Program-made: the position numbers and the translations under genes | Notes under the pieces: model-generated | What the model was told of the DNA's origin: nothing | The model's input: only the letters and a program-made list of their open reading frames with translations | Databases searched by the model: none | Part shown: positions 941-35,459 of the stretch, one piece after another | Numbering within the stretch: the first letter of the stretch is position 1 | How the letters are laid out: each line of letters opens with the position of its first letter | Virus record (IMG/VR): IMGVR_UViG_3300049629_001329 | Location: 1-36,058 of that record | Strand: one strand, 5' to 3' | Source: a virus | DNA length: 36,058 nt

Positions 941-2830
941 ATGGCAGAAAATTTGTCACCATTTCAATCGTTTATTTTTATTTCGCGTTATTCTCGCTGG
1001 ATTCCTGAAAAGAATCGCAGAGAAACATGGGATGAATGTGTAGACCGTTGGTGGAATTATTTTACTGGCAAAGTTCCGCAACTTGCAGAGCGTCCTGACG
1101 TAAAAGAAGCAATCCTCAATCTTGAGGTTCTTCCTTCCATGCGCAGTCTGATGACTGCAGGCCCCGCTCTGGACCATGACAACACTTGCTTGTACAATTG
1201 CTCGTACTTGCCAATTGACAGCCTTGATTCGTTTGCAGAACTTTTTGTAATTCTCATGAACGGAACTGGTGTCGGTTATTCTGTTGAGCACCAATACACA
1301 GATAAACTTCCACAAGTTGCAAACAAGATTGAAAAAGCCTTCAACATTACTTACGTTGTCGAAGACTCCAAGGAAGGTTGGGGCAACTCAGTTAGATTCT
1401 TGATGGATCATCTTTATGCTGGTCGCCACATTAAGTGGGATCTCAGTAAGATTCGTCCATCGGGTGCAAGACTGAAGACCTTTGGTGGTCGTGCAAGTGG
1501 TCCAGCTCCTCTTGACAATCTTTTCAAATTTATTGTCAAGGTGTTCTACAATGCACAAGGCCGAAGACTCACCGCTCTTGAGTGTCACGATATTTGCTGC
1601 GCAATCGCAAACGCAGTCATCGTCGGTGGTGTTCGTCGCTCTGCCATGATCTCTCTCAGCGATCTTTCGGATCGTGAGATGGCTCTCTGCAAGAGCGGTG
1701 CATGGTGGGAGCAGGCTGGTTTCCGTTCATACGCCAACAACTCTGCTGTATATCGTGGCCGCCCTCCAATGGGTCAGTTCCTTGAGGAATGGACTTCGCT
1801 ATACAACAGCCACAGCGGTGAGCGCGGAATGATTAACCGCAGGGCATTGCAGGAGCAAGCAGCCAAATGGGGTCGTGATGAAACCTGTGAGTATGGAACA
1901 AATCCATGCTCAGAGATTATTCTAAAGCCATTTGAGTTCTGCAATCTCTCAACTGTCGTTGTTCGTCCCGATGACACCGCTGCTTCGCTGAAGAAGAAGA
2001 TTGAGATTGCCACCATCATCGGCACAGTTCAATCAACATTTGTTGACTTCCCATACCTTCGTTCCGAATGGAAGAAGAACTGTGAAGAGGAGCGTCTTCT
2101 GGGTGTTAGCATGACTGGAATCTACGACAACAAGTTGACAAGTGGACTCGAAGGCAAGCCAAAGTTGGTACGTCTGCTCGAAACACTCCGCGATCACGCA
2201 ACGGCAACGAACATGAAGTGGGCAGAGAAGCTTGGTATCAATCCAAGCAAGTCCATCACATGCGTAAAGCCAGAGGGAACGACTTCGTGCTTGGTTGATT
2301 CAGCATCAGGTCTTCACCCACGGTATGCGGAACATTATTATCGTAGAATCCGTATTGACAAGAAGGATCCAATTTATAATCTCATGAAGGATCAAGGCGT
2401 TCCTTGCGAAGATGATGTGATCAATCCTAATAATACAGCGGTCTTCACATTTGCTATGAAGGCTCCAAGGGGTACAACTACAACGGAAGATCTCCGTGCA
2501 TTGGATCACTTGGATCTGTGGAAGACTTATCAGGAACATTACTGCCACCACAAGCCATCAATCACCGTCAACTACAAGGATTCAGAGTTCCTTGAGGTCG
2601 GTAACTGGCTCTGGGAGAACTTTGATGTCGCAACGGGCATCTCGTTCCTTCCCGGTGGTGACAATCACACATACGCTCAGGCTCCATTTGAGCAAATTGA
2701 TTCTGCAACATATGCAGCGCATCCGAAGGTTAAAGTTAACTTCAAGGAGCTCTCTAAATATGAGGCAGAAGACAATACTGAGTCGGCAAAGGAATTTGCC
2801 TGCGGTGCTGGTGGTTGCCAGATAGTCTGA
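941..2830 (+). CDS. nrdJ: Adenosylcobalamin-dependent (class II) ribonucleotide reductase, monomeric type
   Basis: 629 residues, shorter than the roughly 740 of the Lactobacillus leichmannii enzyme. It reduces ribonucleotides to deoxyribonucleotides through a cobalamin-generated thiyl radical. Visible residues: Cys87 in NCSYLP (first redox Cys), NPCSEI with Cys323 (thiyl position) and Glu325, Cys334 in FEFCNLS (second redox Cys), and a C-terminal CGAGGC pair (Cys621, Cys626) expected to shuttle electrons. The segment PEGTTSCLV near the C-terminal third is also typical. AAGGAG lies 9 nt before the ATG. It is 26 nt after thyX and is followed by tRNA-Asn and a terminator, so the three form one transcription unit. 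Dependence on B12 means the host must have or take up cobalamin. Confidence 0.93.
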   Translation: MAENLSPFQSFIFISRYSRWIPEKNRRETWDECVDRWWNYFTGKVPQLAERPDVKEAILNLEVLPSMRSLMTAGPALDHDNTCLYNCSYLPIDSLDSFAELFVILMNGTGVGYSVEHQYTDKLPQVANKIEKAFNITYVVEDSKEGWGNSVRFLMDHLYAGRHIKWDLSKIRPSGARLKTFGGRASGPAPLDNLFKFIVKVFYNAQGRRLTALECHDICCAIANAVIVGGVRRSAMISLSDLSDREMALCKSGAWWEQAGFRSYANNSAVYRGRPPMGQFLEEWTSLYNSHSGERGMINRRALQEQAAKWGRDETCEYGTNPCSEIILKPFEFCNLSTVVVRPDDTAASLKKKIEIATIIGTVQSTFVDFPYLRSEWKKNCEEERLLGVSMTGIYDNKLTSGLEGKPKLVRLLETLRDHATATNMKWAEKLGINPSKSITCVKPEGTTSCLVDSASGLHPRYAEHYYRRIRIDKKDPIYNLMKDQGVPCEDDVINPNNTAVFTFAMKAPRGTTTTEDLRALDHLDLWKTYQEHYCHHKPSITVNYKDSEFLEVGNWLWENFDVATGISFLPGGDNHTYAQAPFEQIDSATYAAHPKVKVNFKELSKYEAEDNTESAKEFACGAGGCQIV

Positions 2831-2838
2831 TTCTTCAC

Positions 2839-2911
2839 TCCTCTGTAGCTCAGTTGGTAGAGCGGGAAGCTGTTAACTTCCATGTCACTGGTTCGATTCC
2901 AGTCGGAGGAG
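2839..2911 (+). tRNA. tRNA-Asn (GTT)
   Basis: Complete cloverleaf by eye: acceptor TCCTCTG pairs with CGGAGGA, D-stem GCTC/GAGC, anticodon loop CTGTTAA with anticodon GTT, T-arm ACTGG-TTCGATT-CCAGT. Discriminator is G; a full CCA is not encoded. It starts 8 nt after the nrdJ stop and would be released from the thyX-nrdJ transcript. Confidence 0.95.
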
Positions 2912-2933
2912 CATTAAAAAATCAAAAGATTTT

Positions 2934-2957
2934 ACCCCCGAAAGGGGGTTTTTTATT
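2934..2957 (+). terminator. Intrinsic terminator of the thyX-nrdJ-tRNA unit
   Basis: Stem CCCCC-GAAA-GGGGG followed by TTTTTTATT. The U tract runs straight into the CTAAATA box of the next gene, so unit end and late promoter abut. Confidence 0.85.
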
Positions 2958-2964
2958 CTAAATA
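2958..2964 (+). promoter_or_regulatory. T4-type late promoter box CTAAATA for the protease gene
   Basis: CTAAATA with 8 nt to the ATG at 2973. There is no Shine-Dalgarno between box and ATG. It matches the late-promoter core seen before many genes in this window. Confidence 0.55.
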
Positions 2965-2972
2965 TTTTTGCC

Positions 2973-3770
2973 ATGTTGCTGAGGGCATTAATCCTCGCAG
3001 TCGTGATGGCGACAAGCACTGCTTGCAATTCGCTATCGTCTCCTTCAAAACAAGTTGAATCTGAACAGGAAAAAACACAAGGAGTAGCGGAAGTCCCCGC
3101 ATTCTTATTGGATTCTTCGAAGTACGATTCCATCGGACTAGCTGAGGACGACCGCTACTCCTGTGTAGGTGCTATAGTTACACAATCCGGTGATGTAATC
3201 GGATCTGCGGTTCTTATTCACAGAAATGCAATACTAAGCGCACAGCATTGCTTTGCATTATCTGATGATCCTCCAAAATATTTTTGGACTCATGGAGGAC
3301 AATTTTTAAGAATAGGTAAAGTGCATAAAGCAAGCCCATATGTTCCTGGGTTTCCAATGAATGATATTGTTCTTTGCATTTTGGAAGAAGACTGCTATGA
3401 ACCACCAGCAGAACTTTCAAAGATAACATGGGATCTTATTCCGGGAGAAGAACTTATTACTGTTGGGTGGAGCCTCGGATACAAAAAGGTAAGCGAGAAG
3501 GGTGTAATGCGCTACTACGGCTCTTTAATTGAAGATAATGGACAAGTGATGAGAATGCTTGCACTCAATGGGTCTGTTTATTATGGAGATTCTGGTGGTG
3601 GAATTTTTGAAGATTCTGGAAAATTGGCAGGAATCATATCATTCTTTGGAATGGACCCAGAAACTGGCCATGTAATAGACAACGGGGCAATGAAAGTTTG
3701 CCATTATTATCCGTGGATAGATAATATTATGAAAGAAAGGTTCTGTGACTGGCCTTGGTACGAAGAATAA
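2973..3770 (+). CDS. Trypsin-like (S1/chymotrypsin fold) serine protease with putative lipoprotein signal
   Basis: 265 residues. The N-terminus is a short hydrophobic signal (LLRALILAVVMATSTAC) with a possible lipidation Cys18, though the residue at -3 is Ser rather than Leu. The catalytic triad is visible: His92 in SAQHC, Asp131 in NDIVLCIL, and Ser207 in GDSGGG. Thus it should be an endoprotease exported by the host Sec system or anchored to a membrane. It follows a terminator and carries its own late-promoter box, so expression late in infection is likely. A secreted protease is unusual phage cargo; roles in lysis, envelope remodelling or virion maturation are guesses. Confidence 0.85.
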   Translation: MLLRALILAVVMATSTACNSLSSPSKQVESEQEKTQGVAEVPAFLLDSSKYDSIGLAEDDRYSCVGAIVTQSGDVIGSAVLIHRNAILSAQHCFALSDDPPKYFWTHGGQFLRIGKVHKASPYVPGFPMNDIVLCILEEDCYEPPAELSKITWDLIPGEELITVGWSLGYKKVSEKGVMRYYGSLIEDNGQVMRMLALNGSVYYGDSGGGIFEDSGKLAGIISFFGMDPETGHVIDNGAMKVCHYYPWIDNIMKERFCDWPWYEE

Positions 3771-3773
3771 ATA
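3768..3773 (+). promoter_or_regulatory. Late promoter box TAAATA using the protease stop codon
   Basis: The TAA stop of the protease is the first half of TAAATA. With T4-like spacing, +1 falls near 3779, which lies inside the ATG at 3777 and supports ATG 3786 as the real start of the next gene. Confidence 0.5.
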
Positions 3774-3785
3774 TCTATGTTCCAC

Positions 3786-4325
3786 ATGTTAATAGGTGTA
3801 GATTATTCAATAACATGCCCATGCCTCTGTCTTTATGATGAGAGAAAGCCGTTTAAATTTGACAACTGCTTTTTCTATTATCTGACAAATACTAAAAAAT
3901 ATGCTGACAAGATGCTTCCAAATATTACTGGAGAATCTTTTCAGGAATATGTGGCCGATGTTGACAGATTTGACAGCATTTCAGATTGGGCCATAAATTT
4001 GTGTATTGGGGCGTCTGATGTAGCCATAGAAGGCTATTCATATGGCTCACAGGGCCGAGTATTTCATTTAGCCGAGAACATGGGTATATTCAAGCATAAG
4101 CTCTATAAGGCCGGGGTTCCCCTGACGGTCGTAGAGCCATCCAAGTCAAAGAAACACGCCACAGGCAAAGGTAACGCGGATAAAGCCCTAATGTACGAGT
4201 CCTTCTCCAAAGAGACTGGTACAAATTTATTATTAACTTTTAATCAAAAAACTTTGTCAAACCCTATAACAGATATAGTGGACAGTTACTATATTTTAAA
4301 ATATCTGGTTAACACTAAAAATTAA
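3786..4325 (+). CDS. RuvC-like (RNase H fold) nuclease, probable Holliday junction resolvase
   Basis: 179 residues. The RuvC/RNase H acidic set is visible: Asp6 in MLIGVDYS, Glu82 in AIEGYSYG, and Asp163 and Asp166 in TDIVDSYY; a basic GKGNADK segment precedes the last pair. RuvC-type enzymes cut branched DNA, and in phages they resolve junctions before packaging. ATG 3786 is preferred over the upstream ATG at 3777 because it puts the fold's first strand at the N-terminus and lies downstream of the predicted late start site. The 3' end overlaps the convergent FmdB-like gene by 4 nt. Confidence 0.75.
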   Translation: MLIGVDYSITCPCLCLYDERKPFKFDNCFFYYLTNTKKYADKMLPNITGESFQEYVADVDRFDSISDWAINLCIGASDVAIEGYSYGSQGRVFHLAENMGIFKHKLYKAGVPLTVVEPSKSKKHATGKGNADKALMYESFSKETGTNLLLTFNQKTLSNPITDIVDSYYILKYLVNTKN

Positions 4326-4624
4326 CGAACAATTCTTCCGGCATGTTGGCCAGAATTGTCTAATTTATCATGAAATCTTTTTGGTACTTGACCGCTATTT
4401 TTAATTTTATCAATTACATCTTTCCACGCCGATCCAGTAACTTTAGAAGGAGTTAAAGTCATATCCATGCCTATGGAATTTCTTTGCTGGCCCCAATCTT
4501 TAATAATTTTCTTTTTTCCACAGGATGGGCATTTTTCTTTTAAAGGTTGGTCAGATTCACTCATTTTTAAGAACAGTTCAAATGAATGATCACATCCTTC
4601 ACATATAAAACTATAATTAGGCAT
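4322..4624 (-). CDS. FmdB-like small zinc-ribbon protein
   Basis: 100 residues. The N-terminus MPNYSFICEGCDHSFE followed by CPSCGKKK gives two CxxC knuckles (Cys8, 11, 32, 35), the layout of the FmdB/zinc-ribbon regulatory family. The rest is unstructured and polar. The ATG overlaps the stop of the upstream HNH gene (ATGCCTAA), so translation is coupled. Function in phages is unknown; DNA or RNA binding is inferred from the zinc ribbon. Confidence 0.75.
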   Translation of the reverse strand: MPNYSFICEGCDHSFELFLKMSESDQPLKEKCPSCGKKKIIKDWGQQRNSIGMDMTLTPSKVTGSAWKDVIDKIKNSGQVPKRFHDKLDNSGQHAGRIVR

Positions 4625-5114
4625 TACTATTCTTTCTAAAAGTAATTAGCATGTGATCAAATAAAAATCCGTAAGATGGTTCTTTTGGTTTATTTTTTAG
4701 ATCCATTTTTGCTTCTTTTGGAGTTCTATTTCCTTTATGCAAATTACAATCTTTACATGCTGCTACTAGATTGACCCATGTAGAACCACCGCCCTTACAT
4801 TTTGGTATGACATGATCCAAAGTTGCAGTTTTTGTGCAAAGATCAATACCACAATATTGGCACTTATAATTGTCTCTGCGGAGAATATTTATTCTATTGG
4901 GCGCAGCCTTTTTAAAAGGCAATTTTACATAATATTTTAATATCAAAATTTTAGGAATTTTTACAATTTTTGATACTGATACTACCTCATAATAATCTAA
5001 ACTATTTTCATCAATCCAAACTTTATCTTTCGATAAAAGCTTAAAAGCTTTGGAAATGGTGATAATATTAAGGGGAGTATTGTCTTGGTTTAACAGGAGT
5101 ACCTGTTTTTTCAT
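4617..5114 (-). CDS. HNH endonuclease
   Basis: 165 residues from ATG 5114. The C-terminal half holds the HNH motif: Cys85/Cys88, Asp100-His101 in LDHVIPK, a TWVNLVAAC segment, Cys120/Cys123 and His126 in CNLHKGNRTP. The N-terminal part has the NQDNTPLNII pattern common in this HNH family. The longer reading frame starting at 5195 is rejected because a minus-strand ATAAATA box and AAAAGG lie directly before 5114. It could be a free-standing homing enzyme or a nuclease used in DNA packaging or processing. Confidence 0.85.
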   Translation of the reverse strand: MKKQVLLLNQDNTPLNIITISKAFKLLSKDKVWIDENSLDYYEVVSVSKIVKIPKILILKYYVKLPFKKAAPNRINILRRDNYKCQYCGIDLCTKTATLDHVIPKCKGGGSTWVNLVAACKDCNLHKGNRTPKEAKMDLKNKPKEPSYGFLFDHMLITFRKNSNA

Positions 5115-5124
5115 ACCTTTTAAG

Positions 5125-5131
5125 TATTTAT
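5125..5131 (-). promoter_or_regulatory. Late promoter box ATAAATA (minus) for the HNH gene
   Basis: Minus-strand ATAAATA with 10 nt to the ATG at 5114, including AAAAGG. It is divergent from the plus-strand box at 5138. Confidence 0.55.
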
Positions 5132-5137
5132 GAAAAT

Positions 5138-5144
5138 CTAAATA
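5138..5144 (+). promoter_or_regulatory. Late promoter box CTAAATA (plus) for the 528-residue gene
   Basis: CTAAATA with 10 nt to ATG 5155. Only 6 bp separate it from the oppositely oriented box, so the entire divergent control region is about 40 bp. Confidence 0.55.
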
Positions 5145-5154
5145 TTTTACAGCC

Positions 5155-6741
5155 ATGGATAATAAACAACATAGACAATTATATTGGGAAGTCAAGGATT
5201 TTTTGACAAAAAAACAGGATACTTATGTGCCTGTAAAAAAACCATCCACTCTGAAAGATGTTAGTAAAAATATTTTAGAACAAAATAATATTTTTAAACA
5301 AAAAACACCACAAGCTACAAAAGATACAATAAACAATACTAAAAATGTTTTAGCCTCTCTAGAAAAACAAAGACACGGTTATGATGTTTCTTGTGTTGCT
5401 TATACAAGAAATAATATAGCAAATCCTTTTAATAAAAATGTTATTTATGAATATACAGACAGCAATGAAACCATTGCAAGAAAAAGAATGGAAGCTGAAG
5501 CTAGAAATGAAAGAGCAAGAGCAAGAAATACGGCAGAAAATGACAGACTTTCTCAAGCAAAGCAAGATGTAAAAAGAAAAAGAGAAGAAGACGAAGCATA
5601 TCAATTTAATCAAGAAATTTCAGCAGGATCGCAGGGTCAAGGTCCAACCCCATCTGGTGGTAATTTAGCGGATACACTTGAAATGGGCAGAGATGGTAAT
5701 CCAAATCTTCCAGCAGATACTCCAGATAACAGAGCTCGTATGGCTCAATGGAGAAGAGAAAAAGCAGAAACAAAACAGGCAGAATATATGGCTTCACGGA
5801 TTGCAGAACTTTCTGGGAAAAAACCAGAAGAACTAACGTCACAAGAAGCTGGTGAACTTTCATTGATGAAATCAATGACACAAGGAAAAGTAGCCACAAG
5901 AGGTCTTGAAGGAAAAATACAAGGAAACTTGGAAGCCAAAGCAAAGGTATCTCCGCTAGCAATGGAACCAACTGCTGGCACCGATGATACTGGAAGAACC
6001 CAAGACCAGATTGATATGGATGCAATGGCTTCCGGTAAACCTGGTCCCGATGATGCGGCAAAAAGAAAAGCTGCCGCACAAGGTATGATGCAAAGAACTA
6101 TTGGAAGATCGCAAGAAGATTTAGTTTCTCGAACTCAACAAGCTGGCGCCGAAGAAGCGGAACAGAGAGCTCAAGATAATGCAGACTTTTATGCTCAACA
6201 AGCTGAGAAAAAAAGAGCTGCTATGCAAAACACTCGTATTCAAGGAACGAATATGACATACGGACAATTTGAAGCTCAATATGGAAGACCATATGATGCA
6301 ACAAATAGTGAAGATTCAACTATGCTAGTTCGTGCAGCTAGTAATACATCAGCTTTTAGAGTATCACCCACAGCAAGAGCTTTGGACCAAACAACTGTAG
6401 ATTTTAACAGAACCTATAGAGGTATTAATGCCCAAAATGCAGCAAGAGAAGGAGAACTTGATCGCAGAGTTGATCAATCACAAATTTCTCTAGATCAATT
6501 TAATGCAGATAGAAGGGGGACTGTTCAAAGAGAAATTTCTTCAATACAAGCAAGACCCGGTTTTGTTCGTGGTGTTGCCCAAAGCATGCTTCCTTCAGGC
6601 ACAACACCCCCAAAAATCGGTCAACCAAATACACCAACGGGTGGTGCAAAACCAACAGGGCAACCAGCTAGAATTGGAGCTCCATCACTAAGTCAAGCAA
6701 TAAATAGTGTTTTGGGAAACAATAATACAAGACGGGCCTGA
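5155..6741 (+). CDS. Gln/Arg/Ala-rich coiled-coil protein, probable virion or scaffold component
   Basis: 528 residues, not recognised. From about residue 105 to 150 it is a charged, heptad-like helix (ARKRMEAEARNERARARN), followed by low-complexity Gln, Ala, Gly and Arg-rich sequence and further helical segments to about 360; the C-terminus is Pro/Gly/Thr-rich. No signal peptide or membrane segment. It is late-promoted and ends 4 nt before the 1039-residue gene, so the two are co-expressed. Composition and context suggest a structural or internal head protein; this is inference only. Confidence 0.6.
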   Translation: MDNKQHRQLYWEVKDFLTKKQDTYVPVKKPSTLKDVSKNILEQNNIFKQKTPQATKDTINNTKNVLASLEKQRHGYDVSCVAYTRNNIANPFNKNVIYEYTDSNETIARKRMEAEARNERARARNTAENDRLSQAKQDVKRKREEDEAYQFNQEISAGSQGQGPTPSGGNLADTLEMGRDGNPNLPADTPDNRARMAQWRREKAETKQAEYMASRIAELSGKKPEELTSQEAGELSLMKSMTQGKVATRGLEGKIQGNLEAKAKVSPLAMEPTAGTDDTGRTQDQIDMDAMASGKPGPDDAAKRKAAAQGMMQRTIGRSQEDLVSRTQQAGAEEAEQRAQDNADFYAQQAEKKRAAMQNTRIQGTNMTYGQFEAQYGRPYDATNSEDSTMLVRAASNTSAFRVSPTARALDQTTVDFNRTYRGINAQNAAREGELDRRVDQSQISLDQFNADRRGTVQREISSIQARPGFVRGVAQSMLPSGTTPPKIGQPNTPTGGAKPTGQPARIGAPSLSQAINSVLGNNNTRRA

Positions 6742-6745
6742 TTAA

Positions 6746-9700
6746 ATGGATAATATTCGTAAACTTAATCCAATAATAAAAGATCTTCTTTCAAAAAGAA
6801 ATACTATTTTGAAAGAAGATGGAGCTGATATTAGAGCAAGAAGATCAGAGGAATCAAGATTAAGAAAAGCTGGTGTTTTAAAACCAAATGAAGAGCTACC
6901 GTCAGTAGCAAAACAAGCTGGCGAACAATATAAAAAAAGTTTAGCTTCCTTTAGACAATGGGGTCTCGGAAAGCTTATGGATCTTTCCGATGTTAGTGGA
7001 TGGACTGATGCCTCACAATATTTTTTAAGTCCTGCAGCATCAGAATATTTTGGTGCTGGTGTAGAAGAGTTAGGAAGAGCCGAATCGGAAATGAAAGATA
7101 AATTTCCGGGAAAATATAAAGAACTACGCGATGTTTTAGTTCAAGATTTGGTTAGAGAACGAAAAGCTGAGTTCGATGCAGGCAATACAAATATAAGTGA
7201 AAAAGATTTATTAACAAAAGTAATATCTAAAAATAAAGATTTAGCAGATGTTTTAACTAGAGATGAATATGAAACTGTTGCTGGTGGAATTACAAATCCT
7301 CTTCGTATTGAAACAGAAGATGCAGAAGGAAATAAAAAATTAGAAATAGATTTACCTAGATGGACTGGCATAAGTAAAAGTGCAGCAAATGTTTATGATG
7401 TTGGAGCGGGTGCAGCTGATGTTTTAACTGATCCGGCTCAATTAGCAGCTGGTGGTGCTGTTGGCGCTGCATTTAATGTAGCAACCAGAGGAGCAGGCGC
7501 AATTGGAGGAAGAGTTTTAGCAGGAGCGGCCTCTAGAGCACCAACACAGGTTAAAACCGCAGCAGAAGCATCAAGAAGATTTTTACCACCAATATTAGCA
7601 AGAGCAAGAAGTGCAGAAGAATTGGGAAAAGCCGTGGGAAGAGCTGGGGTCGGCGCAGCTGGAGCAGCCATGATAGCCCCCGGTGCCATTGAAGCAGCAT
7701 CCCAAGACAAATTAGCAAGATGGGCTGGTGAAATGCTTGGTAGTGCTGCACCATTTGTAATGGGCTCCAAATTGGCTGATAGAGCTATTGCAGCTTACAA
7801 TAAATCAAAAACTACACCAAAGCCAGAGGTTTCTGCAAAACCAGAGACTGCACCAGAAGCAGCAAAAGATATAGAAGTTTCGGGTGAAACAAAATTTGAA
7901 ATTCCACCTTCTGGAACATACCCAGCAAAAAATTTACCTAAAGCAGATTTTGGTGCTCCAGCCACTCCACCTGTGCCAGAGTATTCTTTAAAACCACAAT
8001 GGGCAAATACCGGAGAAATGCTTAAATCTGTTGGTTATTTGCCAAATATCTATAAGGCAACCAAAGGGAGAAGAGGTGCTGCTTTTACTGCACAAATCCC
8101 AGAACCAGCAAAAACTGAAGTTTCTAAACCGTTAGCACCAGTTGAAATATCAAGAGAAACAATAACTAATCCTCTTTACGAACCCCCAGCAGTAGGATCT
8201 CAAAGAGTTGATTCTTTTGTTAAAACAGAGGTTCCAATTACATTCTGGACACCACCAGAACCAATTGGACGCGAAGGAAAAGCAAAAGAAAGAAGAAGAA
8301 GAAGATCTGAACCAGAAATTTCTCCAAAACCACCAGAAGAACCAACAGTTCCTGCAGTTGAAACACCCAAAAAATCAGAAACACAAGTTGATTGGAATGC
8401 TCCTGCTACTCCACCTGTACCAGAATATTCTTTAAAACCAGATTGGGCCAATACTGGAGAAATGTTAAAATCTGTTGGTTATTTGCCAAACATTTATAAG
8501 GCAACTAAAGGAAGACAGGGTGGTGCTTTTACTGCACAAATTCCAGAACCAGCACCAATCCCCGAACCAAAAACAACTTTGTCTTTAACAGATATAAAGG
8601 CAATAGAACAAATAAAAAGACCACAAGAATCAATTCTTACTAGAGCAGCAAAAGAAGCAGAGGCTTCTCTAAAATCAAAAGAAGTACCTGCAGAAACAGC
8701 AAAACCTGAAATATCTCCAAAACCACCGGAGGAATTGACTCCCGAGCAAATTCAAGATTTATTGAAAGATCTCTCACCAGTTTCATTTCAGTTTCCGAAA
8801 CGAGCACCAAAACCATCTCTGGCAAGAGCGGCAGGAATAGTAGCTTCAATTCCGGGTGCAGGATCAAATCTGCTGCCAGCTCAAACAACTTTAGCAGATT
8901 TATTAAGACTTCCACAAGTTGCAGAAGTTAAACCAGCAATTGAAATTTCTGTACCAAAATGGGCAACAGAAACAAAACCAGTAGAAATAATTAATGGCGA
9001 ACAAATTGCAAAAGCTGTTGCGGACTTAATGCCACAAATGAAAGCTCCGACTGCAAAACCGGGAGTAATAGAAAAACCAGCTACAGCAACAAAACTTGAT
9101 GACGCTTTACCGCCTTCAGCAAAACCTGAAAGAGCAGTAACAAAAACAGCTGAAAGAATTACAATACAGGAACCATCAGCGATGTCTGGTGTAAAAAGAC
9201 CTTCTGCGATTTCGGCTCCCACATCAACGCCCGCTACTGCACAACCACAACAGCCAGAACAACAACCTACAACAAATAGAGATAGACAAGCACCAGAATT
9301 GGTTGAACCTTCTTCTGCAGGATTCGGTGGCAAAGCTACCGGAAAATCAGCTGAAACGATTACAATACAGGAACCGTCACAGATATCTGGTGCAAAAAGA
9401 CCTTCTGCAGTTTCGGCTCCGAGTGTAACACCAGAAACCAAAGAAACCAAAGAAACTAAAGAAACAAAAACTATTTTTGATATGATGCGCGATATGTATA
9501 GAGATTTTGAAAAAGCGCAAGAAAAAATAACAAATAAGCAAGAAAAAGATACAGAACAAAATACTCAAGATGATGAAACTTCACAAGTTCCACAAGTCCC
9601 ACAAATAATAGTACCTGTAACAAAAAATATTTCAACTGGTGGAACTGATAAAGGTGGAATTGGTGGTTCAGAAAAAGGTCCACCACCAAAAAATATCGGT

Positions 9701-17864: not shown

Positions 17865-18161
17865 TTAAACATCAAAAATTTGTTCATACAAAACTTTGCT
17901 ACGATTATCTGTAACAGAGATGTATCGAACATGACGCTCTATTGCGTCTGAAATATTTATACCATCATTGGGACCGAAAGCCAAGTGTTTGATCCAAGCA
18001 GGACAGCCGCCAATAGAAATACGAACTTCATTTCCATTAGCATCAGTTCCATAAAAATCAAAAGAACTTTTTTCTCCATCAAAGTACGTAAAGAAGCATT
18101 CAATCTGACCATATTTCTTGCGAACTTCTTCAAACGTCATAACAGTTTCAGTTTTAGCCAT
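17865..18161 (-). CDS. Hypothetical early protein
   Basis: 98 residues from ATG 18161. The longer frame up to 18239 is rejected because it overlaps the upstream gene and ATG 18161 has AAGG upstream. It looks like a compact alpha/beta domain (ECFFTYFDGEKSSFDFYGTD then VRISIGGCPAWIKHL). No known motif. Overlaps the upstream gene by 8 nt. Confidence 0.65.
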   Translation of the reverse strand: MAKTETVMTFEEVRKKYGQIECFFTYFDGEKSSFDFYGTDANGNEVRISIGGCPAWIKHLAFGPNDGINISDAIERHVRYISVTDNRSKVLYEQIFDV

Positions 18162-18327
18162 TTGGCAACCTTGAAAGCTTGACAGACTTAGGAAGTTGGC
18201 CAATCTCGTCAAGCTTACGAAGAGTGCCAACCTTTGCATTCATAAGACTCTCGGCACGTTGACGAGCAATCCTATTCTTGCGCTTTTTGTGAGTACGAGC
18301 AGTGATACGTTGTTTTGAATTAGGCAT
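18154..18327 (-). CDS. Small very basic protein (57 residues)
   Basis: 57 residues beginning MPNSKQRITARTHKKRKNRI. The N-terminal half is dense in Arg/Lys and the C-terminal half is helical (KVGTLRKLDEIGQLP). Such composition suggests RNA, DNA or ribosome binding, but no family is claimed. Lies between two operon genes with an 8-nt overlap downstream (ATGGCTAA) and 2 nt upstream, which supports it as a real gene. Confidence 0.6.
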   Translation of the reverse strand: MPNSKQRITARTHKKRKNRIARQRAESLMNAKVGTLRKLDEIGQLPKSVKLSRLPNG

Positions 18328-18329
18328 GA

Positions 18330-18485
18330 TTACATTATACGCTTTTTCTTGGGTTTGTCAAGTTTTTTCTTGGTTGCCTTCTTTTTTGGCTTTCCAAAAA
18401 TTTCATCCCAATTTTTGCAATATTGCTCATAATTTACAGAGCGGTAAGAATCACCTTTTCCTGCACCATGTATTCCTTCAAACAT
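18330..18485 (-). CDS. Small lysine-tailed protein, first gene of the early operon
   Basis: 51 residues: MFEGIHGAGKGDSYRSVNYE, then NWDEIFGKPKKK and a Lys-rich tail. The GKGD-x4-VNYEQYCKNWDEIFGK layout recalls a very common class of tiny phage proteins (GKGD then N-x3-IFGK) of unknown role. The ATG is 7 nt after a perfect TATAAT, so the mRNA should have a leader of at most 1 nt; no Shine-Dalgarno is present. Confidence 0.6.
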   Translation of the reverse strand: MFEGIHGAGKGDSYRSVNYEQYCKNWDEIFGKPKKKATKKKLDKPKKKRIM

Positions 18486-18492
18486 ATTAATA

Positions 18493-18520
18493 ATTATACA
18501 TTATTTTCAAATAAAGTCAA
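18493..18520 (-). promoter_or_regulatory. Sigma70-type promoter TTGACT-16-TATAAT (minus)
   Basis: Minus-strand TTGACT (18520-18515), 16 bp spacer, TATAAT (18498-18493). It drives the 18485 to 17243 operon. Its -35 lies 1 bp from the plus-strand late box at 18522. Confidence 0.75.
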
Positions 18521-21186: not shown

Positions 21187-21202
21187 GCTTTAATAATATA
21201 AT

Positions 21203-21673
21203 ATGAAATGTCTATACTGTCAAGCAAATACTAAAAATCCAAATTTTTGTTCAAAATCATGTGCAGCAAAATTAAATAACCACAAATATCCAAAAAGAAT
21301 TAAAATAGAATCAAAATGTAAATGTGGTTTAAATAAAACTAAAAGTTCAATATATTGCAGAAATTGCAGATATGAAGAAAAATTTTTAAATTATGGAAAT
21401 AAAACATTAGAATCCGTAATTAATGAATCAAAAAATTATGCTTCCAAACACAAATATGAAAAAATAAGACAACATGCAAAAAGAATTGCCAAAAGATTAA
21501 ATTGGATAACAAGTTGTGAAAAATGTGGATATGACAAGCATGTTGAAGTTTGTCACAAAAAAGCAATATTTTCTTTTGATAAAAAATGTTTAGTAAAAAA
21601 TATAAATTGTAAAAAAAATTTATTATTCTTATGCCCCAATTGTCATTGGGAACACGACAATTTAAATAAATAA
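21203..21673 (+). CDS. HNH endonuclease with N-terminal zinc knuckles
   Basis: 156 residues. The N-terminal half holds CLYCQ, CSKSC, CKCG and CRNC pairs, typical of a zinc-ribbon DNA-binding module. The C-terminal half has CEKCGYDKHVEVCHKK and NLLFLCPNCHWEHD, the Cys2-Cys2 and His pattern of an HNH nuclease, though the central His is in VCHK rather than DH. Very AT-rich and Lys/Asn-rich. Stand-alone, next to a tRNA: a plausible free-standing homing endonuclease. The start is ATG 21203; a TATAAT directly abuts it. Confidence 0.75.
   Translation: MKCLYCQANTKNPNFCSKSCAAKLNNHKYPKRIKIESKCKCGLNKTKSSIYCRNCRYEEKFLNYGNKTLESVINESKNYASKHKYEKIRQHAKRIAKRLNWITSCEKCGYDKHVEVCHKKAIFSFDKKCLVKNINCKKNLLFLCPNCHWEHDNLNK
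21667..21672 (+). promoter_or_regulatory. Late promoter box TAAATA
   Basis: TAAATA-ATTTT-ATG (21678), overlapping the HNH stop codon. Exact 14-mer copy of the sites at 18524 and 25175. Confidence 0.7.
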
Positions 21674-22392: not shown

Positions 22393-22398
22393 GACAAC

Positions 22399-22426
22399 AA
22401 TATATCCTTTAAAAAGAGCAAGTCAA
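22399..22426 (-). promoter_or_regulatory. Sigma70-type promoter TTGACT-16-TATATT (minus), leaderless
   Basis: TTGACT (22426-22421), TATATT (22404-22399); predicted +1 is 22392, the ATG itself. The -35 is half of a perfect 16-bp palindrome shared with the divergent promoter. Confidence 0.7.
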
Positions 22427-27938: not shown

Positions 27939-28103
27939 TTAGTTCAATTTAACTTTGACTTCTAGAACAAGAATAGCAACAAGCATTCCAACAAGACTGC
28001 CAGCAACTGCTCCTTCATAGTTTTTGTGGTAACAAAAACCAATCATGTTAAAGCCAAGAAACACAAGAAAAGGTACGGTAAGTTTGTTTAGAATAGTTTT
28101 CAT
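27939..28103 (-). CDS. Small two-helix membrane protein
   Basis: 54 residues from ATG 28103. Two hydrophobic stretches (VPFLVFLGFNMIGFCY and GAVAGSLVGMLVAILVLEV) separated by a short polar loop, basic N-terminus MKTILNK. Function unknown. The ATG is exactly 6 nt after CATAAT of a candidate TTGCCT-16-CATAAT promoter, so it may be leaderless. Confidence 0.6.
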   Translation of the reverse strand: MKTILNKLTVPFLVFLGFNMIGFCYHKNYEGAVAGSLVGMLVAILVLEVKVKLN

Positions 28104-28109
28104 AGGTGT

Positions 28110-28137
28110 ATTATGAATCAAGAAATGGAAGAGGCAA
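28110..28137 (-). promoter_or_regulatory. Candidate sigma70-type promoter TTGCCT-16-CATAAT (minus)
   Basis: TTGCCT (28137-28132) and CATAAT (28115-28110). The same -35 and spacing occur before the gene at 31499. Lies within the HNH 3' end. Confidence 0.4.
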
Positions 28138-30089: not shown

Positions 30090-30470
30090 TTAAGAGGCGA
30101 CTTTCTGTGCCCTGAGAGCAGAGACCTGGAGTTGAAGAATGGGATCCTTTTGTAACCTCTCTTGAGCAGCGCTGCGGACACCCTTTCCCTTGTCTTCCAG
30201 AGCCTTCAGCATGATTTCAGGAGTGGCATTGGGATTCCCGGCAGCAGCATAGCGGACACTGTATTCCTTGTCTTTCATTGCCTTCATCAGGACTTCGGGA
30301 GTGGCATTAGGATTATCGGCAGCCTTCCAGCGGACATCTTCATCTTCATCCTCCAGAGCCTTCAGCAGGACTTCGGGAGTGGCATTGGGATTCCCGGCAG
30401 CACAATAGCGGACAACGCGAACATTGCTGTCTAGGTCTTTCAAAAGTTTATTGGTAGTCTTAGTAGCCAT
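30090..30470 (-). CDS. LRV/HEAT-like repeat protein, copy 2
   Basis: 126 residues with three 26-residue repeats of the form AAxNPNATPE-(V/I)-x-L-KA-(L/M)-x-D-x4-VR, the pattern of leucine-rich-variant/HEAT-like alpha solenoids that bind proteins. N-terminus MATKTTNKLLKDLDSN and C-terminus LQKDPILQLQVSALRAQ are shared with its tandem paralog at 30489. A strong Shine-Dalgarno (AAGGAAA) precedes it. Target unknown; such repeats act in protein-protein contacts. Confidence 0.75.
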   Translation of the reverse strand: MATKTTNKLLKDLDSNVRVVRYCAAGNPNATPEVLLKALEDEDEDVRWKAADNPNATPEVLMKAMKDKEYSVRYAAAGNPNATPEIMLKALEDKGKGVRSAAQERLQKDPILQLQVSALRAQKVAS

Positions 30471-30488: not shown

Positions 30489-30869
30489 TTACGTTTCGGT
30501 TGATTGTGCCTCTAGAGCAGCAACTTGAAGTTTAAGAATGGGATCCTTTTGTAACCTTTCTTGAGCAGCGCTGCGGACATCCTCATCCTTATCTTCCAGA
30601 GCCTTCAGCATGATTTCGGGAGTAGCATTGGGATTCAGGGCAGCACCACTGCGGATACCTTCATCTTCATCCTCCATTGCCTTCCGCAGAATTTCAGGAG
30701 TGGCATTGGGATTCTTGGCAGCATAATAGCGGACCCAGCAATACTCGTCCCCCATTGCCTTCAGGAGGACTTCAGGAGTGGCATTGGGATGCTTGGCAGC
30801 AAAACTGCGGACATCTTCATCCTTGTTGTCTAGGTATTTCAGGAGTTTATTGGTAATCTTGGTAGTCAT
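30489..30869 (-). CDS. LRV/HEAT-like repeat protein, copy 1
   Basis: 126 residues, same length and repeat plan as the downstream copy, with about three NPNATPE-type units. Differences are concentrated in the loops (DEDEGIRSGAAL versus KEYSVRYAAAG), as expected for paralogs under divergent selection. It follows the 30887 gene in the operon; its own Shine-Dalgarno is weak. Confidence 0.75.
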   Translation of the reverse strand: MTTKITNKLLKYLDNKDEDVRSFAAKHPNATPEVLLKAMGDEYCWVRYYAAKNPNATPEILRKAMEDEDEGIRSGAALNPNATPEIMLKALEDKDEDVRSAAQERLQKDPILKLQVAALEAQSTET

Positions 30870-30886: not shown

Positions 30887-31096
30887 TTAGTCATCATAGT
30901 GATCATAGAGGGGTTCGTAACTGTCGTCAATGAAGTCGTAATCTTCCTTCTTCTCTCCCACCTGCTTGAGTGGGGGATGCCCCCACACTTGACCGTAGGA
31001 GGGGTTCCACTCCCACAGAATCCCCCGCATGACTTTGATCTTTGCGTTCAGACGGGCGATCTCTGCCTTCAATTCGTTAATGTCGTCGTTGTTCAT
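30887..31096 (-). CDS. Small early protein, leaderless start
   Basis: 69 residues from ATG 31096. An N-terminal helix (INELKAEIARLNAKIKVMRG) is followed by WEWNPSYGQVWGHPPLKQ and an acidic tail. Unknown family. The first ATG after the -10 box (31102) precedes the predicted +1; the second ATG, at 31096, falls exactly on it. Confidence 0.6.
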   Translation of the reverse strand: MNNDDINELKAEIARLNAKIKVMRGILWEWNPSYGQVWGHPPLKQVGEKKEDYDFIDDSYEPLYDHYDD

Positions 31097-31102
31097 GTTC
31101 AT

Positions 31103-31131
31103 AGTATACACTCTCTTGGGTTGGTTGTCAA
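31103..31131 (-). promoter_or_regulatory. Strong sigma70-type promoter TTGACA-17-TATACT (minus)
   Basis: TTGACA (31131-31126) and TATACT (31108-31103). It shares AGAGTGTATACTATG with the promoter at 31506. Predicted +1 is ATG 31096. Confidence 0.8.
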
Positions 31132-31499
31132 TCAATATGAATCTCAATACCCAAACTATTCATCACCTTCGTGGCCTGCTTACCCACCTTGGGGGCTTCT
31201 TCAGGCAGGGGTGGCAATTCATCCACTCGCAGACGCTTTCTTTCTCCAGTCTGTTCACCGGGAAGAATCTCTGCGGTCAAATATTGAGAAACTTTTTTGC
31301 GTTTGCGCGAAACAACCTTGGGTTCAAACTCTTCGTCATAGATTTCTCTGTATGGACGAATGGCACGGCAGATTGGACTGGACACACACCAGTTATCCAA
31401 TGACGTGCCGGGAAGGGTAGGAAGGGCATTGAACGCCTCTTGAATGCAATTACGCAGATAGCGAATCTCACGCTGCAAACGCTCAATGTCGGGTTGCAT
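31128..31499 (-). CDS. Early protein, leaderless start, coiled-coil N-terminus
   Basis: 123 residues from ATG 31499. A helix QPDIERLQREIRYLRNCIQE leads, a basic KVVSRKRKKV segment sits in the middle, and the C-terminus is Pro/Glu-rich (RVDELPPLPEEAPKVGKQ). No family recognised. First gene of the long minus operon; the A of ATG lies at the predicted +1. Confidence 0.6.
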   Translation of the reverse strand: MQPDIERLQREIRYLRNCIQEAFNALPTLPGTSLDNWCVSSPICRAIRPYREIYDEEFEPKVVSRKRKKVSQYLTAEILPGEQTGERKRLRVDELPPLPEEAPKVGKQATKVMNSLGIEIHID

Positions 31500-31505
31500 G
31501 GACAT

Positions 31506-31533
31506 AGTATACACTCTCAATGGCAAAAGGCAA
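31506..31533 (-). promoter_or_regulatory. Sigma70-type promoter TTGCCT-16-TATACT (minus)
   Basis: TTGCCT (31533-31528) and TATACT (31511-31506). It abuts the plus-strand late box at 31534. Confidence 0.65.
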
Positions 31534-32745: not shown

Positions 32746-33029
32746 GTCCGGTAATATTTTCAGAAATTTTTGAAACCGTCTGAGTGAGTCTGATAACTCC
32801 CCAGTATAGACCCAGAAGGCAGAGTCCGGTAACTAGGACCCACCATAACGCCCGATAACCCCCTGCCCGATAATACTTACGATTATCAGTCACAGGACGG
32901 GACGAGGGGGTTATCGGTCGCATGAACAGTCTGATAACTATACACCAGATATGGGGGATGTCAAGTAATCGATGTACAAGTCCGATAATGGATCCCAGGC
33001 GTGCCAGGTGACTCAGATTGTCCGATAAT
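32746..33029. repeat. Cluster of (C/T)C-(G/T)GATAA-like motifs
   Basis: CCGGTAAT 32746, CTGATAAC 32790, CCGGTAAC 32825, CCGATAAC 32852, CCGATAAT 32867, inverse TTATCGG 32911, CTGATAAC 32931, CCGATAAT 32982 and 33022. A further CCGATAAC lies at 35485. Confidence 0.55.
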
Positions 33030-33222: not shown

Positions 33223-35424
33223 TTATTTCTCTTTCTTGGCGGGGTTGGCAGAGAGGCGGTAGACCTCCTCGCCCACGGCCTTCAGAGGCTGACCCGCCAC
33301 GATGTCCACATACCGGGTGAGGAACACGCGGCTAGATCCACGCTGACCCATCGTCTTGACGAAGGTGTTCTTGATCTTGGTGAACGTGCCACCGTCCGCA
33401 ATGGCATCCTCGTCCTTGACGATCTTGGGAGTCTTGATGAGGAAGAAGCCGTCGTAGCCGGGGTAGGAAGCCTTCGGCAGAATGATGCACCCTTCCCGAT
33501 TGTAAGTCTCCTTCACCGCGAGGAAGCGAGGGCTATTCTCGTAAGCACCGGAACCGCTGTAGTCGCCACGGCGGTAACGATCCTGCTCCTCCGCGTGAAT
33601 CTTCTCCGACTCGTCGGTGGTGACGCAGAACCCGCTGAACATATTTGCGCTGAAGTTCTTGCTGCCCACGAACATTCCCACGGTGCGGGCGTTGAGAGTC
33701 TTGCGAAGATCGTCAAGCATGACCGACACCACGACGTTTCCCATGCTCATGCCACGGGTGGCCTGCGTATCGACGCGAGTGATCTGTCCCATCATCTCGT
33801 TGTTGATGGTGAGGGATGATCCGGCGACGGTGCAGTAGGGAACACCTTCAGAGTTACCTTCGCGTTCCGCCTGAAGGTTGACTCCGTTGGGCTGTCCGTC
33901 CGTCACGACCATCACGGTCGGGATCTGAATGTTGTTGTCCGCCACCCACTTCTGCACGAACTGCGTCCCAAGCATCAAGGCCTCCACGGTCGGGGTGGAA
34001 CCAAGCGAGAACACGCGGCTGCGCTGCTTCAGGACAATCGCTTCGTAGAGGAAGGCGAGGAGCCGTTCCCGCTTGGCCGCATTGTCCGACGAGGATGCCA
34101 ACTGAATCAACTTGCAGGCACCGTAGGCAACCGTGTTGGGACGCAGGTTGACGAACTTGGGATCGTGGGGAGACTGGTACTGGCTGTAGTCACCCGCCGA
34201 ATGCCTCTTGGTGATGGCCTCACGATCCGCCACGCCACGCTCACCCATCACACCGCATTCGGTGAAGCCAAACACCTCAAAGGGAATCTTCGCCTTCTCG
34301 CAGAACCACACCAACTGAAGAATCTGAAGAAAGCAATCGGAGAGCGTCGTTCCCATCGACCCGCTGCAATCAAGGAAGAAGCAGATGCCGTGGTTTTTGC
34401 CGTCCTGCTTGACGATCTTCGACAGGAAGATATCGTCATGGGTGCGGTACTGGTGCAGACGGTCAAGGTTCAGCATCCCGGTCTGCTTGGGACGCTCACG
34501 CCGAATCTCGTCAGCCGCCTTGCGACGCTCAAACTGGGCAACCAACTGGCGAACGAAGGAGTCCGACTGCTTCACGAACTCACGGTAGGAAGTGAGAGTG
34601 AAGGGCATGGTCTGACGCTCAAACTCCCACAGAAGTTCATCGGTGGGAATGATCTGATCCGAAAGATTCTGAATCGGGGAGAGCGTGACCGTGGTGGCGG
34701 TGAAGTCCGCGCCACTCTTACGAACGAACCCGCCCTCCATGTCCACCATGCCAAGCCCTTCGGTCTGCTGCTTGCCCTGCTTGGCATCGGAAGGTTCGCC
34801 CTTGCCGGAGCCATTCTGCTGCTGCTCCTGCTCGTACTTCTTCCGCATCTCGTCCATCGAAGGATGCTCATAGAGAGCCTTCGCCAACTGGAAAGCCTCA
34901 TCGAAGGTCTGCACCGCGTCGATCATGTCCGCAATGCCCTGCTCCTCGTCGGAAAGATTCACATTCATGAAGCCGGGAATGCCCCACTTGAAGTGAATGT
35001 TCATGCGGTTGATGAGTCCGACCTTCGCAATGTCCATCTCGCTGAACTTGAACAGGTCGGTGTCCACGACCTCCTTGTAGCCCAAGAAGAAGTCCCGACG
35101 AGTGCCGGGGTACTTCGCCTTCATCATCTTCTCAATGCGAACGTCCTCAATCACGTTGCAGATGCGGTGCAGCAACTTGCCATTGAACCCATCGGCTTCC
35201 GCCTGCTTCATCAACTCCTCGCTACGCTCGTAGGGAGTCCACAGGGCATGGCTGATCTCGTGAGCCACGAGCATGGTCTGAAGGGTGTCGGAGACATTCC
35301 AGACGGGCATGACGAGGTGACGAGTCTTGACATCGAACGATGCCGTGGGTGCGTTGGCATCGAAGGAGAAGGAAAGGTTTTCGGTGGCGAGAGCGCGGGC
35401 GAAGATGGAGAGAGAGGTGTTCAT
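33223..35424 (-). CDS. HExxH metallopeptidase-like plus VWA (MIDAS) domain protein
   Basis: 733 residues. N-terminal domain: AHEISHALW (His55, Glu56, His59, a zinc HExxH) with NVIEDVRIEKMMKAKYPG (Glu93/Asp94 as possible third ligand). A Gln/Lys-rich linker spans about 195-225. C-terminal domain: ICFFLDCSGSMG (Asp352, Ser354, Ser356), the MIDAS of a von Willebrand A fold, and VMVVTDGQPNG. Such VWA proteins usually work with MoxR-type AAA ATPases in phages and CobT-like systems. Visibly GC-rich, unlike the late genes. Its ATG lies 6 nt after TAAGAT, so the mRNA is predicted leaderless. Confidence 0.8.
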   Translation of the reverse strand: MNTSLSIFARALATENLSFSFDANAPTASFDVKTRHLVMPVWNVSDTLQTMLVAHEISHALWTPYERSEELMKQAEADGFNGKLLHRICNVIEDVRIEKMMKAKYPGTRRDFFLGYKEVVDTDLFKFSEMDIAKVGLINRMNIHFKWGIPGFMNVNLSDEEQGIADMIDAVQTFDEAFQLAKALYEHPSMDEMRKKYEQEQQQNGSGKGEPSDAKQGKQQTEGLGMVDMEGGFVRKSGADFTATTVTLSPIQNLSDQIIPTDELLWEFERQTMPFTLTSYREFVKQSDSFVRQLVAQFERRKAADEIRRERPKQTGMLNLDRLHQYRTHDDIFLSKIVKQDGKNHGICFFLDCSGSMGTTLSDCFLQILQLVWFCEKAKIPFEVFGFTECGVMGERGVADREAITKRHSAGDYSQYQSPHDPKFVNLRPNTVAYGACKLIQLASSSDNAAKRERLLAFLYEAIVLKQRSRVFSLGSTPTVEALMLGTQFVQKWVADNNIQIPTVMVVTDGQPNGVNLQAEREGNSEGVPYCTVAGSSLTINNEMMGQITRVDTQATRGMSMGNVVVSVMLDDLRKTLNARTVGMFVGSKNFSANMFSGFCVTTDESEKIHAEEQDRYRRGDYSGSGAYENSPRFLAVKETYNREGCIILPKASYPGYDGFFLIKTPKIVKDEDAIADGGTFTKIKNTFVKTMGQRGSSRVFLTRYVDIVAGQPLKAVGEEVYRLSANPAKKEK

Positions 35425-35430
35425 GCTGTA

Positions 35431-35459
35431 ATCTTACCACAAGTTTGGGGTCAGGTCAA
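35431..35459 (-). promoter_or_regulatory. Sigma70-type promoter TTGACC-17-TAAGAT (minus)
   Basis: TTGACC (35459-35454) and TAAGAT (35436-35431). Predicted +1 is ATG 35424. Confidence 0.65.

Follow-up and report, generated by a model that had tools for sequence, protein, structure and literature searches.

In a 36-kb stretch of DNA from an uncultured virus (IMG/VR record IMGVR_UViG_3300049629_001329, positions 1 to 36,058; referred to here as the window) and in its relatives, the -10 element of most strong sigma70-type promoters is followed after 6 nucleotides (nt) by an ATG start codon. This layout is real and is stronger than an earlier note on this DNA had stated. Leaderless mRNA is very probably the default for promoter-proximal, presumably early, genes in this T4-like clade, and appears to be so for dozens of genes per genome in the uncultured group. 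From the letters of the DNA we infer that transcription starts exactly on the A of the ATG, that these genes are translated without a leader and that they are expressed early in infection. Leaderless mRNAs in phages are usually regarded as exceptions, and to our knowledge very few phages use the layout as a system. In a literature search with most subscription journals outside its coverage, no description of T4-like phages whose early genes are systematically leaderless came up.

The relatives comprise 16 viral contigs retrieved via the VWA/peptidase gene of the window (33223-35424), which together with the window form a set of 17 contigs and 0.85 Mb. They carry a T4-type core consisting of capsid, portal, terminase, gp43 DNA polymerase, gp41 helicase, gp44-47, and UvsX/W/Y, as well as a gene for a gp55-like late sigma factor. 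The core proteins are ~35-57% identical to those of a Kyanoviridae phage, with capsid, portal, protease, and terminase 45-57% identical to those of DSL-LC02, and among isolates Synechococcus phage S-8S53 has the closest capsid protein (54%). T4-type capsid, portal, terminase, and replication genes were not found in the 36-kb window itself. The group, placed by the core genes of the relatives, is one of T4-like myoviruses related to Kyanoviridae.

All six loci named in the earlier note are present on the minus strand of the window with the spacing it had given (Table 1). The only perfect promoter in the scanned part of the window, that of ATG 18327, was absent from that list yet fits the same rule. 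At a promoter score of at least 9/12, seven open reading frames (ORFs) begin with an ATG at exactly 6 nt where 0.88 would be expected (Poisson p = 3.8e-5), the mean at each other distance being 0.82. Sigma70-type promoters in general (TTGACA, 16-18 nt, TATAAT) number 80, versus 46.6 in shuffled sequences. At 31096 and 31499 an extra in-frame ATG directly follows the -10 element. Under normal promoter geometry this codon sits at -6 and so would not be transcribed.

Table 1. Predicted promoter-start units and the genes they precede; positions refer to the window, except in the last row
Feature	Position	Strand	Remarks
TTGACC-17-TAAGAT-TACAGC-ATG35424; promoter with 6-nt discriminator	35425..35459	-	+1 predicted at A of ATG
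VWA/peptidase-like protein, phrog_459, 733 amino acids (aa), predicted leaderless	33223..35424	-	orthologs in cyanophages and a Pelagibacter phage
TTGCCT-16-TATACT-ATGTCC-ATG31499; promoter	31500..31533	-	+1 predicted at A of ATG
Predicted leaderless ORF, 123 aa, no assigned function	31128..31499	-	leaderless layout in 4/4 orthologs found
TTGACA-17-TATACT-ATGAAC-ATG31096; promoter	31097..31131	-	overlaps stop codon of preceding gene; +1 predicted at A
Predicted leaderless ORF, 69 aa	30887..31096	-	family with leaderless layout in 9 contigs
TTGCCT-16-CATAAT-ACACCT-ATG28103; promoter	28104..28137	-	+1 predicted at A of ATG
Predicted leaderless ORF, 54 aa, small conserved hydrophobic protein	27939..28103	-	6 or 7 nt in 10/12 orthologs
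TTGACT-16-TATATT-GTTGTC-ATG22392; promoter	22393..22426	-	+1 predicted at A of ATG
Predicted leaderless ORF, 117 aa	22039..22392	-	leaderless layout in 4/5 orthologs
TTGACT-16-TATAAT-TATTAAT-ATG18485; promoter with 7-nt discriminator	18486..18520	-	+1 predicted at A or 1 nt before
Predicted leaderless ORF, 51 aa	18330..18485	-	6 or 7 nt in 7/8 orthologs
TTGACA-16-TATAAT-GTAATC-ATG18327; perfect promoter	18328..18361	-	within end of preceding ORF; +1 predicted at A
Predicted leaderless ORF, 57 aa, basic	18154..18327	-	5 or 6 nt in 6/7 orthologs
Repeated promoter elements ~110 nt upstream of leaderless-type genes	L038 (G007) 1474-9230; L028 (G002:C1) 81347-93466		

A genome-wide count of -10-to-ATG distances had been proposed in the earlier note as a check, and the related contigs display a sharp peak at 6 nt rather than the peakless distribution that would have spoken against leaderless starts. 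The pattern TTGACN-16/17-TANNNT occurs 424 times in the 17 contigs, versus 134 times in the reversed sequence. Behind it, open-frame ATGs number 172 at 6 nt, 21 at 7 nt, and ~4 at each other distance, while the reversed control yields a single ATG at 6 nt. The only other high value is 24 ATGs at 0 nt, an ATG-NNN-ATG arrangement as seen at 31096 and 31499 of the window. All 16 whole related contigs match the composite promoter-start pattern, compared with one match in total for its reverse. Scored with a uniform promoter score, related contigs hold 18-24 sites at 6 nt versus 1-2 in T4, S-PM2, and HTVC008M, in which no 6-nt peak is seen; T4 leaders instead form a broad cluster near 25-31 nt. Among 17 control records screened by pattern, only the Thermus phage phiYS40 stands out.

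The layout is conserved between orthologs. The VWA gene has 16 orthologs, with protein identities as low as 53%, and in all of them the -10 element ends 6 nt (15) or 7 nt (1) before the ATG. Mapping was extended to 23 gene families, each present in at least four contigs, without requiring a promoter. Of the resulting 191 orthologs, 145 lie at 6 nt, eight at 7 nt, three at 8 nt, one at 5 nt, and 34 elsewhere. Several of these 34 are the same gene placed inside an operon with a Shine-Dalgarno (SD) sequence, as in families 15 and 22, and at least one is a leaderless-type gene with a weaker promoter score. The mode of initiation thus seems to follow position, with promoter-proximal copies leaderless and internal copies SD-led, which agrees with the earlier observation that most genes within the same operons carry an SD. 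The 'rule' proposed at that time holds for promoter-proximal genes, although a compact SD leader, as in TACAAT-ACACCC-AACAAGGAGACTGACC-ATG, follows some promoters of the early-type arrays.

The same orthologs address the possibility that the true start codons lie elsewhere and that an ATG at +1 is incidental. The second in-frame ATG at 31096 and 31499 lends this some weight, and gene callers would choose other starts. However, the VWA protein is conserved from exactly the promoter-linked methionine onward in 16 orthologs and aligns with cyanophage peptidases near its N-terminus, and an incidental ATG would not hold a fixed distance of 6 nt across 23 families. Misassignment was therefore rejected and is extremely improbable.

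The bases around the start are also distinctive. Transcription start sites prefer a pyrimidine at -1 followed by a purine at +1. The base preceding the ATG is almost always a pyrimidine (C 90%, T 9%), and this 99% share of C or T at -1 fits transcription starting at the A. At 6 nt the start codon is ATG in 172 cases, GTG in three, and TTG in none, which is consistent with the requirement of leaderless mRNA for AUG (PMC3616915). The reported lack of an SD at such starts extends to 219/226 sites, an SD-like sequence being present in 7/226. Codons 2-11 of leaderless-type genes have a C+A content of 0.71 versus 0.515 further into the same genes, with G depleted behind the start. In SD-led genes of the same genomes the corresponding values are 0.564 and 0.510, and the difference in C+A rise between the two classes is significant (p = 6e-25; p = 2.5e-7 when matched for GC, among GC-rich genes). 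CA repeats downstream of the start are known to enhance both leaderless and leadered translation (PMC9031893). Predicted folding of the first 36 nt is weak, at a mean of -1.3 kcal/mol versus -6.9 inside genes; as SD-led genes are similar (-2.0), low 5' structure is not specific to the leaderless type.

Promoter and start are packed into ~35 bp, often overlapping the previous gene. Leaders may accordingly have been lost merely because the overlap saves space, with no translational role, and the promoters at 31096 and 18327, which overlap the end of the preceding ORF, suit this explanation. Against it, the sequence behind the start is enriched in C+A and depleted of G in a class-specific manner, and the C+A rise recurs in an unrelated lineage. 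Together with this base signature, the near-absolute use of AUG points to selection on translation too. Furthermore, the noncoding promoter elements and transfer RNA (tRNA) arrays of the same regions are not compact. Compaction as the sole cause is consequently considered unlikely.

The unrelated lineage is represented by the phage contig G023 (147 kb; L186-L193), the terminase of which is only ~24% identical to those of Bacillus phages. T4 genes were not found in G023 apart from a faint terminase match. It nevertheless has 21 sites at 6 nt and five at 7 nt. Their discriminator differs (CCGCNC), but C+A rises behind the start in the same way (0.62 vs. 0.47, p = 5e-4). G023 also carries 18 clustered tRNAs. 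In L097, which has a distant T4-type terminase, nine of ten TTGAC-type promoters lie at 6 nt. Based on these two layouts, the 6-nt rule seems to have arisen, or to have been kept, in separate lineages.

Recurrence with different motifs in G023 also argues against the peak being a duplication effect, caused by recent spread of a copied promoter-start cassette within each genome. Some promoters in G012, G007, and G017 do have similar spacers. In the other genomes, however, spacers resemble one another little more than after shuffling (identity 0.29-0.35 vs. 0.24-0.28), with 0-2 similar pairs of 66-190. Since spacers within a genome are mostly dissimilar, one copied cassette is not indicated, and this explanation was rejected as most improbable.

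A stronger competitor is that the layout is imposed by the host, with the phages copying the architecture of a bacterium that widely uses leaderless genes, as in Deinococcus-Thermus, Actinobacteria, and some Alphaproteobacteria. A permuted form of transfer-messenger RNA (tmRNA) occurs in alphaproteobacteria, some betaproteobacteria, and cyanobacteria. These phages carry permuted tmRNA as well (RF04321), several phyla make common use of leaderless genes (PMC3160421, PMC12340547), and Caulobacter has 375 leaderless mRNAs (PMC4117421), all of which would suit a host origin. Conversely, a search for the host did not succeed. Neither psbA nor WhiB has a family match in the phage contigs, hence nothing points to a cyanobacterium or an actinobacterium as host, and among bacterial genome contigs the host search found none with a relative of the VWA gene. 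In a 257 Gb bacterial collection the composite promoter-start motif occurs just 13 times, as single matches in unrelated bacteria, whereas several viral contigs have 2-5 copies each. In addition, phiM12 and CcrColossus, phages of the leaderless-using Sinorhizobium and Caulobacter, lack the rule. On balance a host-imposed layout is a serious possibility, albeit one that the evidence leans slightly against. Genes for an IF3-like protein and for ribosomal protein S21, sought as possible favourers of leaderless mRNA, were not found in the contigs.

If leaderless mRNA is the default for these genes, host RNA polymerase would read sigma70-type promoters with 6 nt, at times 7 nt, between the -10 element and the start codon. 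Transcription would begin on the A of the AUG and yield an mRNA without a leader. Ribosomes (70S, or 30S together with initiator tRNA) would then bind its 5'-terminal AUG directly, with no need for SD pairing. Unstructured, C+A-rich codons 2-11 would help ribosome binding, while operon-internal genes and the strongly expressed capsid gene would use SD leaders. Early timing is presumed, and is consistent with the sigma70-type promoters, the gp55-like sigma gene, and the capsid gene. In the five contigs with a mapped capsid start, an AGGAGA-bearing leader precedes the ATG in all five and a TATAAATA late promoter lies within 80 nt in three. A broader proposal is a two-stage translation programme, in which host-takeover genes expressed early lack leaders, carry a C+A-rich downstream enhancer, and are translated by an SD-independent route, and late structural genes are SD-led, with independent origins in unrelated phages rather than copying from a host. 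This is speculative and on the unlikely side. In the SD test applied to them, 19/26 internal late genes have a weak SD or none, thus SD-led late genes are firm for the capsid gene only.

Several observations weigh against leaderless mRNA as the default. The counts are drawn from related contigs and orthologs and are hence not independent. Under the scored promoter test phiYS40 is a weak positive control, with three sites each at 6 nt and 7 nt where the background is 0.5. Approximately one third of strong promoter-like sites precede no ATG, tRNA, or SD leader. Lastly, in G002 and G007 some of these unclassified sites form a second promoter ~110 nt upstream of several leaderless-type genes, which could add leadered, SD-less transcripts. 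These upstream sites include repeated elements of TTGACA-17-TACAAT followed by TGCCTCGGTGGAATAATTTATTT or CTACTTGGTG (Table 1), which may drive small RNAs or tandem transcripts.

Other features were also observed. L028, L038, and L200 (G002, G007, and G017) contain tandem arrays of many short genes without assigned function. Every gene in them has a leaderless promoter to itself, and divergent promoter pairs lie at the array centres. Array loci have a G+C content above that of the whole contigs, e.g. 0.50 in L001 vs. 0.38 in G001. A strong promoter in the window (TTGACA-17-TATATT, 21195-21223, minus strand) lies 8 nt before a tRNA-Gly, and many promoters of this type drive tRNAs in relatives. 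The permuted, two-piece tmRNA gene of the window (Rfam RF04321, 23980-24258, plus strand) was missed by ARAGORN, which identified permuted tmRNAs in several relatives; the tags predicted for these are short, e.g. ANELAMAA and AEELAIAA. Downstream of the VWA gene, a conserved noncoding locus (32780-32964, minus strand) is present in 11 aligned contigs. Its TTGAC-TATA promoter is followed by GACTGTTCATG, which is invariant, and by a long hairpin (GATAACCCCC...GGGGGTTATCGG), behind which many contigs have GTTATCGGACT repeats. The locus probably encodes a phage small RNA that belongs to none of the known families. At 30090-30470 and 30489-30869 (minus strand) lie two neighbouring ORFs, both 126 aa long and similar in DNA, the first encoding HEAT-like repeats.

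The putative leaderless genes of these phages are numerous enough to serve as a natural collection in which determinants of leaderless mRNA efficiency can be tested, and suggest a phage route around SD-based translation control. Gene callers may also place starts wrongly in such genomes.

The early promoters of T4 and cyanophages are likewise sigma70-type, are read by host polymerase, and belong to phages with the same core genes, but those of T4 produce leadered mRNAs. The mRNA of lambda cI is known to be leaderless. Its citation as a precedent in the earlier note is borne out by the PRM mRNA, which reads TAGATT-TAACGT-ATG, placing 6 nt between the -10 element and an ATG at +1. Lambda cI is however a single regulated repressor gene, whereas here a rule covers dozens of genes. 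Deinococcus-Thermus (PMC12340547) and Actinobacteria (PMC3160421) share a TANNNT a few nt before the ORF and the lack of an SD, although theirs are cellular genes. In Deinococcus the -35 element is optional (PMC12340547), while the unit in these phages includes a -35 close to consensus. The closest comparison is phiYS40, the middle and late mRNAs of which are described as leaderless in PMC3594737, citing Sevostyanova et al. 2007. By this account it is a lytic phage with a whole leaderless mRNA class, showing that a phage can do so. Its sequence contains eight TTGAC-17-TANNNT-6-ATG sites with a pyrimidine at -1, compared with none in reverse. As described in that source, phiYS40 differs in that its host normally uses leaderless genes and is reported to undergo shifts in IF2 and IF3, and in that its leaderless class is middle and late, while in the T4-like phages it would be the sigma70-type, presumably early, class.
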